48,097 bases of DNA from an uncultured Pelagibacteraceae bacterium (GTDB taxonomy: Bacteria > Pseudomonadota > Alphaproteobacteria > Pelagibacterales > Pelagibacteraceae), in the NCBI GenBank assembly GCA_902616145.1, contig CACMRM010000007.1:1-48097 (forward strand). Reading direction: 5' to 3'. The notes under the pieces were generated by a model. It saw nothing but the letters and a program-made list of their open reading frames with translations, ran no database searches and had not been told where the DNA came from. The stretch's first letter is position 1. Each line of letters begins with the position of its first letter. A program made the position numbers and the translations under genes. Shown in pieces: positions 399 to 5,294 of the stretch.

Positions 399-589
399 TA
401 GTCAAAAATCAGGTAAGTTGTTAAAGATATGCCCACTATAAGGCCTATTATTAAGCCTAAAGCTATCGTTTTTTTGCCCTTTGAGCTTGAGTTAGTCCAA
501 AAGTACGAAATTCCATAAACAACAGCTATAAATACTATTAAGGGAAGAATAAATTTAATCATTAGCTTTAAAATTATATGTATTGACAT
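398..589 (-). CDS. Small two-helix membrane protein, function unknown
   Basis: This 63-residue protein has two hydrophobic segments (about residues 5-30 and 42-60) joined by a short Ser/Lys-rich loop (SSSKGKK), so a helical hairpin in the inner membrane is likely. I do not recognise a family. The first ATG is taken as start, but the ATG at codon 10 (MIKFILPL) would fit equally well; neither has a clear ribosome-binding site. Its stop overlaps the ogt start by one base, suggesting a two-gene operon. It is divergent from the recombinase gene across a 55-base gap occupied largely by an inverted repeat. Confidence 0.6.
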   Translation of the reverse strand: MSIHIILKLMIKFILPLIVFIAVVYGISYFWTNSSSKGKKTIALGLIIGLIVGISLTTYLIFD

Positions 590-606
590 CTAAAATCACT
601 TAATAT

Positions 607-641
607 ATTACTAATGATAATTAATTGTTATCAATAGTAAT
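607..641. repeat. Inverted repeat with 14-base arms and 7-base spacer; candidate recombinase site
   Basis: The left arm at 607-620 reads ATTACTAATGATAA and the right arm at 628-641 reads TTATCAATAGTAAT. They pair at 13 of 14 positions (mismatch 614/634) around a 7-base spacer TTAATTG. The right arm ends three bases before the recombinase ATG. Core sites of tyrosine recombinases have two inverted arms of about 11-13 bases around a 6-8 base crossover region, and dif has inner ends ATAA and TTAT as here. Alternatives are an operator controlling the divergent pair, or an mRNA hairpin covering the recombinase start region. Confidence 0.5.
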
Positions 642-644
642 TAC

Positions 645-1598
645 ATGAATGAGTTAGTTACAGATATAAAAAAGCTTCATGAGGAAACTTTAGAAAACCT
701 CAAGAGCTCAAAAGCTAATAACACGCTAAGGGCGTATAAATCTGATTTTAAAGATTTCGGGGCTTTTTGCGCAAAACACGGATTTAACTCAATGCCAACA
801 GAGCCAAAAATTGTATCTTTATACCTCACACATCTATCTACTAGCACAAAATTAAGCACTCTAAGACGCAGGCTAGTATCTATAGGAGTGGTTCATAAGC
901 TAAAAGGCCATTATTTGGACACCAAGCATCCAATTATAATTGAAAACTTAATGGGTATAAAAAGAAAAAAAGGCAGCATTCAAATTGGTAAAAAACCTAT
1001 ATTAATCAATCACTTAAAAGAAATAATTAATGTAATAGATGATCAAAAAATAGAAAAAATTAAAAAATTGAGAGATAGAGCTCTTATACTCATAGGTTTT
1101 GGTGGAGGTTTTAGACGGACAGAATTAATTTCTATTGATTATGAAGATTTAGATTTTGTAGAAGAAGGTTTAAAAATAACCCTAAGAAGATCTAAAACGG
1201 ATCAATTTGGAGAAGGATTGGTCAAAGGAATACCCTACTTCAGCAATGAAAAGTATTGCCCAGTTATAAGTTTAAAAAATTGGATAAATCTTTCTAAAAT
1301 AAAAACAGGGGCAATTTTTAGAAGATTTGCAAAAGGTTCAATACTAACTAGTAACAGATTAACAGATCAATCAGTGGTGCTAATAATTAAACATTGTTTA
1401 AAATTAGCAGGAATAGAAAATAAAAATTTTTCGGGTCACAGTCTAAGATCAGGTTTTGCAACAGTAGCTGCAGAATCTGGAGCAGACGAAAGAAGTATTA
1501 TGGCAATGACAGGTCATAAAACTACACAGATGGTAAGGCGTTATATAAAGGAAGCTAATATATTTAAAAATAATGCATTAAACAAAATCAAATTATGA
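645..1598 (+). CDS. Tyrosine recombinase / integrase
   Basis: This 317-residue protein of the phage-integrase family breaks and rejoins DNA through a 3'-phosphotyrosine intermediate. An N-terminal SAM-like core-binding domain (about 10-105) precedes the catalytic domain (about 115-305). The full catalytic set is visible: Arg157 (GFRRTEL), Lys184 (RRSKTD), His265 and Arg268 (HSLR), His291 (GHKT) and the nucleophile Tyr300 (RRYI), so it should be active. Length matches XerC/D, but the C-terminal motif (HSLRSGFAT) is closer to stand-alone integrases than to Xer proteins. No excisionase, relaxase or phage gene lies beside it. It is the only mobility gene seen and sits at the left end of the accessory region. 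A 35-base inverted repeat lies directly upstream. Confidence 0.92.
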   Translation: MNELVTDIKKLHEETLENLKSSKANNTLRAYKSDFKDFGAFCAKHGFNSMPTEPKIVSLYLTHLSTSTKLSTLRRRLVSIGVVHKLKGHYLDTKHPIIIENLMGIKRKKGSIQIGKKPILINHLKEIINVIDDQKIEKIKKLRDRALILIGFGGGFRRTELISIDYEDLDFVEEGLKITLRRSKTDQFGEGLVKGIPYFSNEKYCPVISLKNWINLSKIKTGAIFRRFAKGSILTSNRLTDQSVVLIIKHCLKLAGIENKNFSGHSLRSGFATVAAESGADERSIMAMTGHKTTQMVRRYIKEANIFKNNALNKIKL

Positions 1599-1621: not shown

Positions 1622-2320
1622 TTAATCTCTAAAATTATTATTAATAAAAACTAAATCAGAGTGAAGTATGTTTGCCAGAGTATAATTTTTTGATTTTATA
1701 AGTTTATATATTTCTGATTTAATAATATTATTAATATTTAAATTTTTTATTTCCAATTTTTTTAATGATAAATCTAAATACTCAACAACAATAACCTTGG
1801 GCGAATATTTTATAAAATCGAAATTCTTTAATATAGCCAACTCTGAACCCTCTACGTCTACAGATAAAAAATCAATTTTTTTATCTTTAAACGGAGAATT
1901 TTCTATAATCTTGTTAATCGTTTGAGTTTTAATTTTTTTAATTGCAGAGACCTTAGCTTTTTGAAAATCTGCATTATCCTTACTAATTGTATTTAATGCT
2001 GATTTGCTGTGGTAAAAATATAGTTCTGTCTCCCCTTCTTTATCAGAAACTGCAGTTGCTAAATTAACATCTTTTTTTCGATAAGAATTGAATAAATCAA
2101 TATTATCCACGTCTAAGTCTATATTTATACCGCTCCAACCTTTTTTATTTAATAAGTAAGTGTTGTTATTTTTAATTGGATGACCGCAACCTATATCTAA
2201 GTAAAACCCTTCTTTTTGATCCTTAAAAATATTCAAAACCAAAGAATCTATTCCTCCATAGGAGTAAGAAACTTTTTTATGAGTAAGAGATTTTATAAAA
2301 ACTTTAATAAATTTAAGCAT
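1622..2320 (-). CDS. FkbM-family SAM-dependent methyltransferase
   Basis: This 232-residue protein has a class I methyltransferase fold of the FkbM type. The SAM-binding motif YLDIGCGHP is near residues 40-48, an acidic strand end (NIDLD) near 70, and the family block DFLSVDVEGSELAIL near 150-164. FkbM enzymes O-methylate sugar or polyketide hydroxyls and are common in O-antigen and capsule loci. It is the last of a minus-strand group with two glycosyltransferase genes, and its start overlaps the upstream glycosyltransferase by 8 bases. I infer that it caps or decorates a surface glycan; the acceptor cannot be read from the sequence. It converges with the recombinase gene across 23 bases. Confidence 0.8.
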   Translation of the reverse strand: MLKFIKVFIKSLTHKKVSYSYGGIDSLVLNIFKDQKEGFYLDIGCGHPIKNNNTYLLNKKGWSGINIDLDVDNIDLFNSYRKKDVNLATAVSDKEGETELYFYHSKSALNTISKDNADFQKAKVSAIKKIKTQTINKIIENSPFKDKKIDFLSVDVEGSELAILKNFDFIKYSPKVIVVEYLDLSLKKLEIKNLNINNIIKSEIYKLIKSKNYTLANILHSDLVFINNNFRD

Positions 2321-3164
2321 TTTTTTTATATAAAATTGAGTGAAACGCGTATGCTACTTTACATTTTGCTAAATCATAATAATACATAGGACCTTTATAA
2401 GGCTCTGTTAACGGACCATTAAATGGAGTGTCAGATTTAAGATAATATTTTTTGAAAAATTTTATACTCACACCCCATTTGAGTAAAAACATTTTAGCAC
2501 CGTTATTCCATGCTTTTTTTCTAAGTGATATTGAAGAGAAATGATAAACTCTACTATTGCCTAATCCTTTGAATAATCTGACACCCATTTTCCACAATTT
2601 CATATTAAAATCTGGATCAGATCCTAAGCCAGGACTAAATTCTTCGCTAAAGCCCCCTGCTTTATCCCATGTGCTTTTTGGGACCAACGAAGGTTGCCAA
2701 TGAGTTCCCTGAAAATCCTCAAATTTTAATTGATTAACATTCTTCAGTAATTTTTCTTCATCAAAATCTTCTAATGTCTTTCCACAATCAAATTTTAGAT
2801 AAGACTCAAAAGGTTGAACCATCGTTCCTGATAAAAAAAAGTCAGAATTATGAGGTATTTTGTCTAACTCTTTAGAAAAAACGTCATCCCAACCTGGACA
2901 AAAATACATATCATCATGCGCTAGAACTATAAAATTTCTTGAAGATTTTCTGACTGCTTCATTAAATGCCACGCAAACACCTGAATTAATTTTACTATAG
3001 GTAAAGAAATAATTTTCATTTTTCAAAAAATCTAAGGTACCGTCTTTACCCTCATTTACATGTATAATTATTTCATGATTATATTTAGAATTCTTTTTTA
3101 TACTTTTTAAACAAAGTTTAAGATAATCAATATTGTTAAAAGTTGGGATTATTATTGAAAACAT
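2313..3164 (-). CDS. Glycosyltransferase family 2 (GT-A fold)
   Basis: This 283-residue protein begins with the GT2 hallmark FSIIIPTFNNIDYL. A nucleotide-sugar-binding acidic triplet DDM is at residues 84-86 (VLAHDDMYFCPGW), in the place of the usual DXD. A later block (GGFSEEFSPGLGSDPDFNMK, about 172-191) resembles the acceptor-side region of family members. No membrane segment is seen, so it is a soluble or peripheral cytoplasmic enzyme. It lies directly downstream of the 709-residue glycosyltransferase with no gap and overlaps the FkbM gene, so the three form one operon. Donor and acceptor sugars are unknown. Confidence 0.85.
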   Translation of the reverse strand: MFSIIIPTFNNIDYLKLCLKSIKKNSKYNHEIIIHVNEGKDGTLDFLKNENYFFTYSKINSGVCVAFNEAVRKSSRNFIVLAHDDMYFCPGWDDVFSKELDKIPHNSDFFLSGTMVQPFESYLKFDCGKTLEDFDEEKLLKNVNQLKFEDFQGTHWQPSLVPKSTWDKAGGFSEEFSPGLGSDPDFNMKLWKMGVRLFKGLGNSRVYHFSSISLRKKAWNNGAKMFLLKWGVSIKFFKKYYLKSDTPFNGPLTEPYKGPMYYYDLAKCKVAYAFHSILYKKNA

Positions 3165-5294
3165 TTAGTTTTCCCAATAATATTTCTTTTTATTCTTAAT
3201 ATTTAAAGATTTATCAATAATATATTCTGCAACCAAATTTGAATTAAAATATTTCATGTATTTTTCCTTACCTTTTTTGGCAATCATTTTTCTTTTTTTA
3301 TCGTCACTAGAAATTTCCAAAATTTTCTCAGATAAATCGTTTATATTTTTATAGAAGATCATTTCTTTATCGTTAAAAAAATTTCTATATTGAGTTTTTT
3401 CATCGATTAAACAAACTAATCCATTTCCTACAATTTGTGTAATTCTATCGCTGCTATAATATTTAATAGCTTCGCCCCTACTTAAATTAAGTCCCATTTT
3501 TGCGTTTGAAATAGTTTTAAAATAATGGTCAGCCCAAATTGGTTGAATTTTATCAATTCCATATAAATCAAACTTAACGTCTGGTGTTTTTTTTGTTAAA
3601 TCTTTTAAAAAAGTAATCCTATCATCTACTTTGCCAGATTTTAATACTCCCCTGTGCACTCCGTGACTTAATGCAAAGAAAACATCTACATTACATGATT
3701 TTTTATAGTTATCTAATATTTCAAATGATTTATCTGACGGATTAGGAATATAAAAACTATTCTCATTTTTCAAAAATTTTAAAACATCGGGACTTGTTGT
3801 TAAAAAAGTTGAGTCAACTACTTTTATCTTATCTAGAATTCTTTTTTTATTTCTTTCATAATCTGGGCCCTTCTTGTTGAGAGGATCTAAAAACCATTGG
3901 CTAAATTTTGCATTGGGGTAATCATTTTTCAACTCTGCTAATTGTTCGGATGAAATTAAATCTGCGTGACCCAATACAATTAGATCAGGCTTATAATTAT
4001 AACAGGTCTTTTTTAATTTATCATTGAGAGTTTTTGCTCCTTTGATATCACCAAAACCTCTATAGTATTTTTGAATATCTCTATCGCTAAATCCTAATAC
4101 ACTATGCCCTAATCTTATAAAACCGTTATTAATTCTTCTTCCAGTATTAAAAAAAAGTCTTCCATCTAATCTTTCATTAAAGTTTGTTATATGAAGTACT
4201 CTTAAGTTTTTATTAATCTTTCTAGTGAAGAATTTACTGGCTGATTGAAGTTTCTCTGATCTATAATTGTCCATTTTTGAGGCAACGAATTCATGAGTTA
4301 AATAAAAATTATTTAATGATAATTTTTGTAATCTTTTTCTGATTTTCTCTTTTTCAATTAATTGACGAATTGTTTTTTCTAAATTTTTAACATTTAATTT
4401 TTTTAAAATTCTAGCGTTTGTGACTGTTTCTGGAAGACCACCTTTATCTGTAATTATTACGGCACAACCATTTGCAGATGCCTCTAAACTTGTTCTACCA
4501 AAAGGCTCCTCCCACCTTGAGCAAGCTACTGCTATACTTGTTTTTTTAAATATTTCTAAAACTTTTTCATGATTTTGAAATCCTAAAACATCTGCATTTT
4601 TATGTTTTAAAATTATTTTTTCCCTTTTTTCATCTCCTATAATTTTCGCTTTCCAATCTGGATATCTTTTAAGGATTTTTTTAATTGATTTTGCAAAAAC
4701 ATCATAACCTTTTGCAGTATTAAGCTTTCCAACAAACGTGATCCATTTCTTTTTATTTTTTAAAATTGATTTATTATTTTTTTTTGCTGATTGAAAAAAA
4801 ACTACTAATTTTTCACTATTTACAAATTTATTTTCCAAACCATTTAAAAATCTTTTTTTTGACCAATTACTATTAAATATTATTTTATAACAACTTTTTA
4901 AAAGATTTTTTCTATCTTCAACAGTTTTTGATCCGTCCATAGATAATGGATCATTATGAAAATATAAAGATAAAATTTTATCCGGAAGTTTACCTTTTAA
5001 AATATTAATATAACTTGGCCTATTATGAATTTCTAATATAGAAAAATTAAATTCCTTTTGTAAATCTAAAAACTTATTGACATATAGTTTTGTTTGGCTT
5101 CTTAATGGATTGTTAAATAATTCTATATTTTTGTATTTTATTTTGAATTTCTTTTTGTATTTTGTGCTTCCGAATACAGTTATATTTTTTTTATATTTAC
5201 TTCTTAAACTTGTTTCGTAAACAAACAAGGATACAGCTCCAGGGTAATCCGGTGAGAAATTTTCTTTATAGGGTAACAAAATTCCAATTTTCAC
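3165..5294 (-). CDS. Two-domain glycosyltransferase: GT4-like N-half plus CgeB-like C-half
   Basis: This 709-residue protein appears to join two GT-B glycosyltransferase units. The first (about 1-345) has the retaining GT4 signature: WITFVGKLNTAKGYDVF (about 184-200) and an EX7E pair at Glu263/Glu271 within WEEPFGRTSLEA, followed by DKGGLPETV. The second (about 360-700) restarts with LRVLHITNFNERLDGRLFF and resembles CgeB/family-1 glycosyltransferases, with YIPNPSD and a late block around YYSSDRITQIVGNG. Two active sites could add two successive residues to one glycan. Its start overlaps the GIY-YIG gene as ATGA. The second half is assigned from overall pattern and is less certain than the first. 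Confidence 0.75.
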   Translation of the reverse strand: MKIGILLPYKENFSPDYPGAVSLFVYETSLRSKYKKNITVFGSTKYKKKFKIKYKNIELFNNPLRSQTKLYVNKFLDLQKEFNFSILEIHNRPSYINILKGKLPDKILSLYFHNDPLSMDGSKTVEDRKNLLKSCYKIIFNSNWSKKRFLNGLENKFVNSEKLVVFFQSAKKNNKSILKNKKKWITFVGKLNTAKGYDVFAKSIKKILKRYPDWKAKIIGDEKREKIILKHKNADVLGFQNHEKVLEIFKKTSIAVACSRWEEPFGRTSLEASANGCAVIITDKGGLPETVTNARILKKLNVKNLEKTIRQLIEKEKIRKRLQKLSLNNFYLTHEFVASKMDNYRSEKLQSASKFFTRKINKNLRVLHITNFNERLDGRLFFNTGRRINNGFIRLGHSVLGFSDRDIQKYYRGFGDIKGAKTLNDKLKKTCYNYKPDLIVLGHADLISSEQLAELKNDYPNAKFSQWFLDPLNKKGPDYERNKKRILDKIKVVDSTFLTTSPDVLKFLKNENSFYIPNPSDKSFEILDNYKKSCNVDVFFALSHGVHRGVLKSGKVDDRITFLKDLTKKTPDVKFDLYGIDKIQPIWADHYFKTISNAKMGLNLSRGEAIKYYSSDRITQIVGNGLVCLIDEKTQYRNFFNDKEMIFYKNINDLSEKILEISSDDKKRKMIAKKGKEKYMKYFNSNLVAEYIIDKSLNIKNKKKYYWEN

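Follow-up and report, generated by a model that had tools for sequence, protein, structure and literature searches.

What does a near-perfect inverted repeat do directly in front of a lone tyrosine recombinase gene in a Pelagibacteraceae genome? SAR11 bacteria are among the most abundant organisms on Earth. The window, by which we mean the whole stretch of 48,097 nucleotides analysed here, is contig C7 of a 1.04-Mb draft genome that is 94% complete. Our comparisons make it very likely that the palindrome and the adjacent gene form a single-recombinase, Xer/dif-type chromosome dimer resolution module of the Pelagibacteraceae, located at the replication terminus. The features discussed are collected in Table 1.

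Table 1. Positions of the site, the recombinase gene and related palindromes (window coordinates unless a phage or contig locus is given)
Feature	Position	Strand	Evidence
TTGACA, conserved -35-like hexamer	583..588	+	by eye
Palindromic core site, proposed SAR11 dif, allele A	607..641	+	anatomy, conservation, GC-skew switch in 7/7 sampled complete relatives
Left arm ATTACTAATGATAA, proposed recombinase-binding half-site	607..620	+	13-base part TTACTAATGATAA exact in 64/80 loci, 1-2 changes in the other 16
Asymmetric central region TTAATTG, proposed strand-exchange region	621..627	+	same centre in 75/80 loci
Right arm TTATCAATAGTAAT, proposed recombinase-binding half-site	628..641	+	13-base part TTATCAATAGTAA in 73/80 loci
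Lone tyrosine recombinase, 317 aa	645..1598	+	PF00589; expected catalytic residues present (R157, K184, H265, R268, H291, Y300)
Codons of the 12-residue insertion (residues 226-237)	1320..1355	+	seen only with allele A sites
SAR11 dif-like palindromes	L209-L220		IMG/VR contigs
dif-like palindrome, HTVC100P	L221 34320-34377		
dif-like palindrome, HTVC106P	L222 35376-35435		
dif-like palindrome, HTVC035P	L224 2031-2087		
dif-like palindrome, Greip	L231 2466-2497		

The palindrome and the recombinase gene

The two 14-base arms (607-620 and 628-641) pair at 13 of 14 positions around a 7-base spacer, and three bases separate the end of the site at 641 from the recombinase ATG at 645, exactly as a sequence-only reading of this DNA had placed the repeat. 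Markov-shuffled 48-kb windows contained a repeat with arms of 14 bases, a spacer of 7 and 13 or more pairs 0.033 times per window (5 of 150 shuffles), and spacers of 5-9 bases with the same arms occurred 0.39 times per window, with 41 of 150 shuffles containing one; the real window holds three palindromes with spacers of 5-9, one each at spacers of 6, 7 and 8. Taken alone, the palindrome is a mild rarity for DNA this rich in AT, and the weight of the argument therefore rests on its position and conservation. Arm-like matches with up to one mismatch numbered 12 in the genome of origin compared with 6 in a backward control, and only the arms at 607-620 and 628-641 were among the 12 without a mismatch. 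The site has the properties of a dif site in being palindromic over about 28 bp, AT-rich, intergenic and present once per chromosome in the complete genomes searched.

The adjacent gene encodes a member of the tyrosine recombinase family (PF00589, 78.7 bits against a cut-off of 27.1), the only PF00589 match in the draft genome at its 94% completeness. The six residues named in Table 1, which we take to have the catalytic roles that they have in other tyrosine recombinases, do not vary among the 31 relatives that were aligned, in agreement with the earlier claim that all catalytic residues are present. The protein scored below the cut-offs of the named Xer families, with 74.2 bits for NCBIfam XerD (cut-off 329.6), 65.7 for NCBIfam XerC (335.15), 42.4 for NCBIfam XerS (NF003462; 267) and 68.8 for archaeal XerA (NF040815; 220).

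Orthologues were detected in 230 of 297 sampled Pelagibacteraceae genomes; the 67 genomes without a match are drafts, so that a gap or a true absence would both fit. Among genomes drawn at a completeness of at least 70%, 70 of 77 contain the gene, and the seven without a match, which include one genome at 99% and one at 96% completeness, are drafts in which an assembly gap is possible. Nearly all family genomes listed have one match. Two are listed for G007, G032, G034 and G225, three of these cases being fragments or a weak unrelated match. The lone gene is present in each of 12 genomes examined more closely (11 of them a single contig), nine of which have no other PF00589 tyrosine recombinase; G009, G017 and G063 carry a further one, which in G063 was matched in two pieces. 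The recombinases are either 317 residues long, as in the window, or about 305.

Upstream of the gene, the -35-like hexamer could pair with either of two possible -10 elements that overlap the left arm, TATATT at 604-609 (15 nt) or TATTAC at 606-611 (17 nt). By eye, all 30 close loci and 22 of 23 diverged ones keep TTGAC upstream, the 23rd being cut by a contig end; a consensus promoter scan did not call the TTGACA promoter. The site and the likely promoter start region overlap, so that autoregulation is possible as a second role. The same overlap, together with the conserved TTGAC, would also suit a palindrome that is only an operator, through which the recombinase or another dimeric regulator controls the gene while recombination takes place elsewhere or nowhere. 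We consider this very unlikely, however, as 12 phage-contig stretches that lack a SAR11-type recombinase gene contain palindromes with these arms, the centre of the site is conserved yet asymmetric, the site is positioned at the GC-skew switch, and upstream palindromes are also found in some distant plasmid and phage relatives. A dimer resolution site that may double as an operator is the reading we retain.

Conservation, alleles and chromosomal position of the site

A palindrome lies directly before the ATG in 30 of 30 closest orthologues, the window included. The diverged set comprised 29 loci from 26 genomes, of which five are cut at a contig end and one (L096) is a non-orthologue, and all 23 that remain have the site upstream. 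A larger set of 80 named loci, kept from at least 572 relatives and overlapping with the 30 orthologues, carries the site in 80 of 80 cases at 30-33 of 33 consensus matches, ending 1-9 bases before the start codon; by title, 79 of these loci belong to Pelagibacteraceae and one to Pelagibacterales, and they derive from SAR11 genomes, mostly single-cell ones. The repeat was thus conserved upstream of every orthologue inspected in these overlapping sets, and the earlier suggestion of a dif-like tyrosine-recombinase core site that belongs to the lone recombinase is very probably correct.

The site occurs in two alleles. Allele A has the long arms TTACTAATGATAA/TTATCAATAGTAA and allele B reads TTCCGATAA-TTAATKG-TTATCGGAA; the core common to both is GATAATTAATKGTTATC, and the two arms change together. 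Site allele and a 12-residue insertion in the recombinase, which forms a strand-loop-strand element in the predicted model, agree in 51 of 51 cases (A with the insertion, 32/32; B without it, 19/19), as counted from alignment columns and uncorrected for kinship. The 80 named loci, all of allele A, also have the longer form of the recombinase as judged by pattern. The insertion and allele A are both present in L068 (67% identical) and L080 (57% identical), the latter not being firmly grouped with the other allele A rows in the tree; L080 (G022, allele A) and L086 (G009, allele B) come from one genus. In G052 (L081) and G075 (L079) the promoter flank looks like the one in congeneric genomes with allele A, and the site and gene are of allele B, so that the module seems to have been exchanged as a whole.

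The agreement between site and enzyme also bears on whether the palindrome could serve an unrelated regulator, for example as a Fur-like GATAAT operator whose place beside the recombinase is incidental. GATAAT/ATTATC-like words in the site do resemble Fur boxes, but the match of site allele with the insertion in 51 of 51 cases and the single copy per complete genome searched make such a coincidence extremely improbable.

No second copy (at least 26 matches) was found near the 80 loci in stretches of up to 5 kb on each side, and none was found at up to three mismatches in 11 complete genomes, where allele A occurs once in each of eight and allele B once in each of the other three. The sequence-only reading had held that the lack of a second copy in the genome would refute its proposal; a single copy is actually what a dif site requires. 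The outcome thus favours dif and tells against the other half of that proposal, a module that inverts or exchanges the neighbouring accessory DNA, and the gene is instead widely conserved and at the replication terminus of sampled genomes.

The same data weigh on a gene that would be the integrase of an island or prophage, with the palindrome as an attachment or inversion site for exchange of the neighbouring polysaccharide-type accessory genes. Such a gene would fit the glycosyltransferase and other accessory-type genes downstream and the swapped module in G052 and G075, where an A-like flank adjoins a B site and gene; ordinary homologous recombination, however, explains that swap, and an island integrase would not be expected as a widely conserved gene with one match in nearly all genomes listed and no second site found. 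We regard it as a very unlikely explanation and have rejected an island integrase or inversion site on the grounds of the missing second site and the wide conservation of the gene. In the downstream stretch itself (window 1622-5294), the recombinase is followed directly by genes of accessory appearance, one of them for a family 2 glycosyltransferase (2313-3164), and the terminus may be a flexible region.

All seven complete genomes that were sampled, from four genera (g4, g9, g12 and g5), place site and gene at the GC-skew sign switch, the expected replication terminus, with G026, G035, G063 and G078 outside the sample; skew was taken from 20 stretches of 20 kb in five of the genomes and from 10 stretches in G005 and G022. 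In a two-arc fit, the plus-to-minus switch falls within the sampling interval of the gene in G003 (gene at 674.7 kb), G017 (524 kb), G043 (1338 kb), G009 (774 kb) and G040 (1013 kb), and the maximum of the detrended cumulative GC skew is at most one sampling step from the gene in all five, which span three genera. In G005 and G022, one of which is from the fourth genus, skew is positive just before the gene and negative just after it. The chance that a random locus falls in a given interval is about 5%. SAR11 GC skew is weak and noisy: G003 stays on a broad plateau until about 920 kb and has another high point around 860-920 kb, the detrended maximum of G043 is one stretch before that of the gene, and the positive side is weak in G022. 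In the window, the skew on the right side of the gene is -0.09, which agrees with a terminus at the window's left end; the left side lies outside the contig, and the genome is a draft. No KOPS-like octamer stands out; leading-strand skew is shared by many G- or A-rich words.

From the site, its position and its partner gene, the following mechanism can be proposed. Two identical recombinase monomers would each bind one of the inverted arms. If sister chromosomes became fused through an odd number of crossovers, FtsK, which is present and has a gamma domain, would bring the two copies of dif together at the septum, where the recombinase would exchange strands across the 7-base centre and so restore monomers. 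Bound recombinase, sitting on the likely start region of its own gene, would probably also limit transcription of that gene. Binding, cleavage, dimer resolution, FtsK control, autorepression and the plasmid capture discussed below are all steps that we infer.

Absence of the XerC/XerD pair and a possible plasmid origin

In the sister family of this order, all 16 genomes searched contain a XerD-like protein, whose 307-325 bits fall slightly short of the 329.6 cut-off, and 15 of the 16 have another Xer-like protein at 244-257 bits, which we take to be XerC. In the 12 Pelagibacteraceae genomes searched, only the lone gene was detected, at 65-82 bits, besides the extra recombinases of G009, G017 and G063, and no XerC/XerD pair was found. 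FtsK is present in 12 of these 12 genomes; that of the genome of origin has alpha, motor and gamma domains by HMM, and a gamma-like C-terminus was seen by eye in 12 translations. FtsK is not required in the archaeal XerA system. By eye, the recombinase C-terminus lacks the XerD residues reported for FtsK contact, and XerS is likewise described as lacking the FtsK-contact residues of XerD (PMC5357621).

An AlphaFold model of the recombinase (mean pLDDT 80.5, weak at the C-terminus) matched Cre or its derivatives at ranks 1-29 of a PDB structure search, followed by XerA, XerH and an integron integrase. By sequence profile, XerD and Cre were closest, and XerH structures matched more weakly than either (3e-8). 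In a 40-row tree, which was midpoint-rooted, contains some long branches and does not include XerH, XerS or XerL, the inner branch from SAR11 to plasmid and phage recombinases measures 0.73 changes per column, compared with about 4.4 to the XerC/D-like proteins of the sister family, each branch being supported at 100/100. By these branch lengths, the SAR11 recombinase is nearer to plasmid and phage recombinases, a grouping that is not a proven clade, than to XerC/D.

Some of these relatives have palindromes of their own. Exact B arms lie 27-28 bases upstream in 3 of 22 relatives on viral contigs, with a near form in one more; the three have one and the same centre and are thus probably near-copies. 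Seven plasmid relatives inspected out of 2514 records showed clear upstream palindromes in three cases, a weak one in one (a Sphingopyxis plasmid) and none in three. The arms pair at 16 of 16 positions on the Protochlamydia plasmid pPNK (L515), at 13 of 13 on plasmid 2 of Rickettsiales Ac37b (L517) and at 8 of 9 on Aureimonas pAU20g (L520), the last matching allele B at 17 of 18. These three palindromes, situated 39-113 bases upstream, look like parts of plasmid resolution modules. Separately, in high-GC contigs of about 54-118 kb (L325, L329, L330 and L431, with L431 and L329 from one contig), a related recombinase has exact allele B arms in front of it, and these are possibly phage-plasmids. 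The Cre-like predicted fold and the closeness to recombinases of plasmids and phages, some of which have a similar palindrome upstream, suggest that the SAR11 module was captured from a plasmid or phage-plasmid resolution module and displaced XerCD.

Pelagiphage sites and comparison with known systems

Sites of the SAR11 type are also found in phage DNA. Exact B sites occur in nine IMG/VR contigs and A sites in three; a SAR11-type recombinase is present in 0 of these 12 site-bearing contig stretches, which are not established whole genomes. The large terminase of L217 is 79% identical to that of HTVC106P and that of L209 61% identical to that of HTVC010P; L212, L216 and L219 were judged by eye to be tailed phages from their ORFs. 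Palindromes of A and B type stand side by side in 8 of the 12 stretches, one of them often degenerate, and by eye only, the A copy in L211 and L212 has a shortened centre.

Named isolates were scored for A-type arms out of 26, giving 25 for Greip, 24 for HTVC100P, 23 for HTVC035P and 22 for both HTVC106P and HTVC024P; for a 35-kb genome, null sequences reached 23 in 0 of 300 trials and 22 in 2 of 300. An A-type site of at least 22 is therefore present in 5 of 13 isolates, and no clear site was found in the other eight, HTVC010P among them, with 10 of the 13 scanned only over 2.3-5 kb near the terminase. The B score is 17 of 18 in HTVC106P and HTVC035P (null of at least 16, 0/300) and 15 in HTVC100P (null, 11/300). 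No integrase is annotated in the whole records of HTVC100P and HTVC106P, which have a site, or of HTVC010P, which has no clear one. In some HTVC010P-type pelagiphages the dif-like palindromes, often as an A and B tandem, occupy a non-coding gap close to the terminase genes.

A looser pattern, TTCCGATAA-N6/7-TTATCGGAA, matched at least 120 IMG/VR stretches (L401-L476 among them), and 11 of the 85 inspected have a recombinase match within 400 bases. Most of the 85 are AT-rich with no recombinase nearby, and the same centres recur in them (TTAAACG 12, TTAAATG 11, TTAATTG 9). A SAR11-type recombinase was not found in IMG/VR, where 23 relatives are 27-39% identical. HTVC010P-like large terminase (terL) genes were present in 7 of 397 SAR11 genomes (L337-L343), possible prophages whose flanks, where examined, hold no dif-like site, and a limited search of IMG/VR and the 397 SAR11 genomes found no integrated phage copy at a host dif.

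Elements that use the host Xer machinery, known as IMEX, carry a site like the host dif and no integrase of their own. The phage sites suggest mimicry of the SAR11 dif. A study by Du et al. from 2021 reportedly concerns the life strategies of HTVC010P-type pelagiphages and may already report their integration. According to PMC8163748, Greip and HTVC010P are exclusively lytic by gene content, and infection dynamics that include those of Greip are said to suggest lysogeny, chronic infection or host bistability. For such lysogeny-like dynamics of some SAR11 phages without lysogeny genes (PMC8163748), the sites offer a concrete attachment-site hypothesis.

A wider scenario, which we put forward tentatively and hold to be somewhat short of an even chance, would join these observations. 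SAR11 would have discarded XerC/XerD and would resolve its dimers with a Cre-like module of plasmid or phage-plasmid descent that settled at the terminus, and two co-evolving alleles of site and enzyme would be exchanged from one species to another. Certain pelagiphages of the HTVC010P type, whose group has members regarded as strictly lytic because they lack lysogeny genes, would have a mimic of each dif allele, one next to the other, and would rely on the host recombinase for integration into, or maintenance with, whichever SAR11 type they had infected.

Published accounts bear on the host module in several ways. A 2009 survey lists Pelagibacter ubique as without a dif/Xer system (PMC2731167), and the module proposed here is contrary to that statement; the Legionellales gap in the same survey was filled by a single recombinase (PMC9765430). 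Neighbourhood of site and gene is described as a possible hallmark of single-recombinase systems in PMC5357621. The P. ubique gene SAR11_1019, annotated xerD, is tabulated under the initial response to sulfur depletion (PMC5069961), and xerD is stated to rise in light in starved cells (PMC3090418); from its name, SAR11_1019 is probably the orthologue of the window recombinase. In the literature searched, with subscription papers and Du et al. 2021 outside it, the text that was available held no description of a SAR11 dif site or of Xer use by pelagiphages. A site defined to 35 bp and a single gene beside it bring the segregation of chromosomes in a free-living, streamlined cell within reach of a test, and the SAR11 module is a likely case of XerCD displacement by a plasmid-type module.

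The XerC/XerD-dif system of other Alphaproteobacteria shares with SAR11 the proposed task, an FtsK with a gamma domain and the inner ATAA...TTAT ends of the site, but it uses two proteins where SAR11 has one, and the SAR11 protein falls far below the cut-offs of both and is set apart from the XerC/D-like proteins of the sister family by a long branch with 100/100 support. Cre/loxP of the phage-plasmid P1 combines a single recombinase with inverted arms and a short asymmetric centre and serves in plasmid dimer resolution. It is the best structural match of the predicted SAR11 model, yet Cre is only about 17% identical to the SAR11 recombinase, and the SAR11 site is chromosomal, at the terminus, and has other arms. 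XerL/dif of the Legionellales, as described in PMC9765430, resembles SAR11 in its single recombinase, its long uninterrupted symmetric arms and a mobile element with a dif mimic, whereas in L. pneumophila the site and the XerL gene are more than 400 kb apart.

In two further systems a single recombinase acts on a site beside its gene. XerH/difH of Helicobacter and Campylobacter, according to PMC2731167 and PMC5357621, has the site by the gene in most species and near the terminus; XerH, at 354-362 residues, is longer, the arms are unlike those of SAR11, and the SAR11 profile matches XerH structures at the 3e-8 given above. XerS/difSL of streptococci and lactococci, according to the same sources (PMC5357621, PMC2731167), likewise has one recombinase with the site immediately by its gene and involves FtsK, but XerS has 356 residues and difSL, 31 bp long, has unequal arms on either side of an 11-bp centre, compared with 317 or about 305 residues, equal arms and a 7-bp centre in SAR11. 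The palindrome and its gene are best read as a module of Xer/dif type with one recombinase, which would work like XerS/difSL and XerH/difH; we assign it to neither family, and for XerS the score is below the cut-off.
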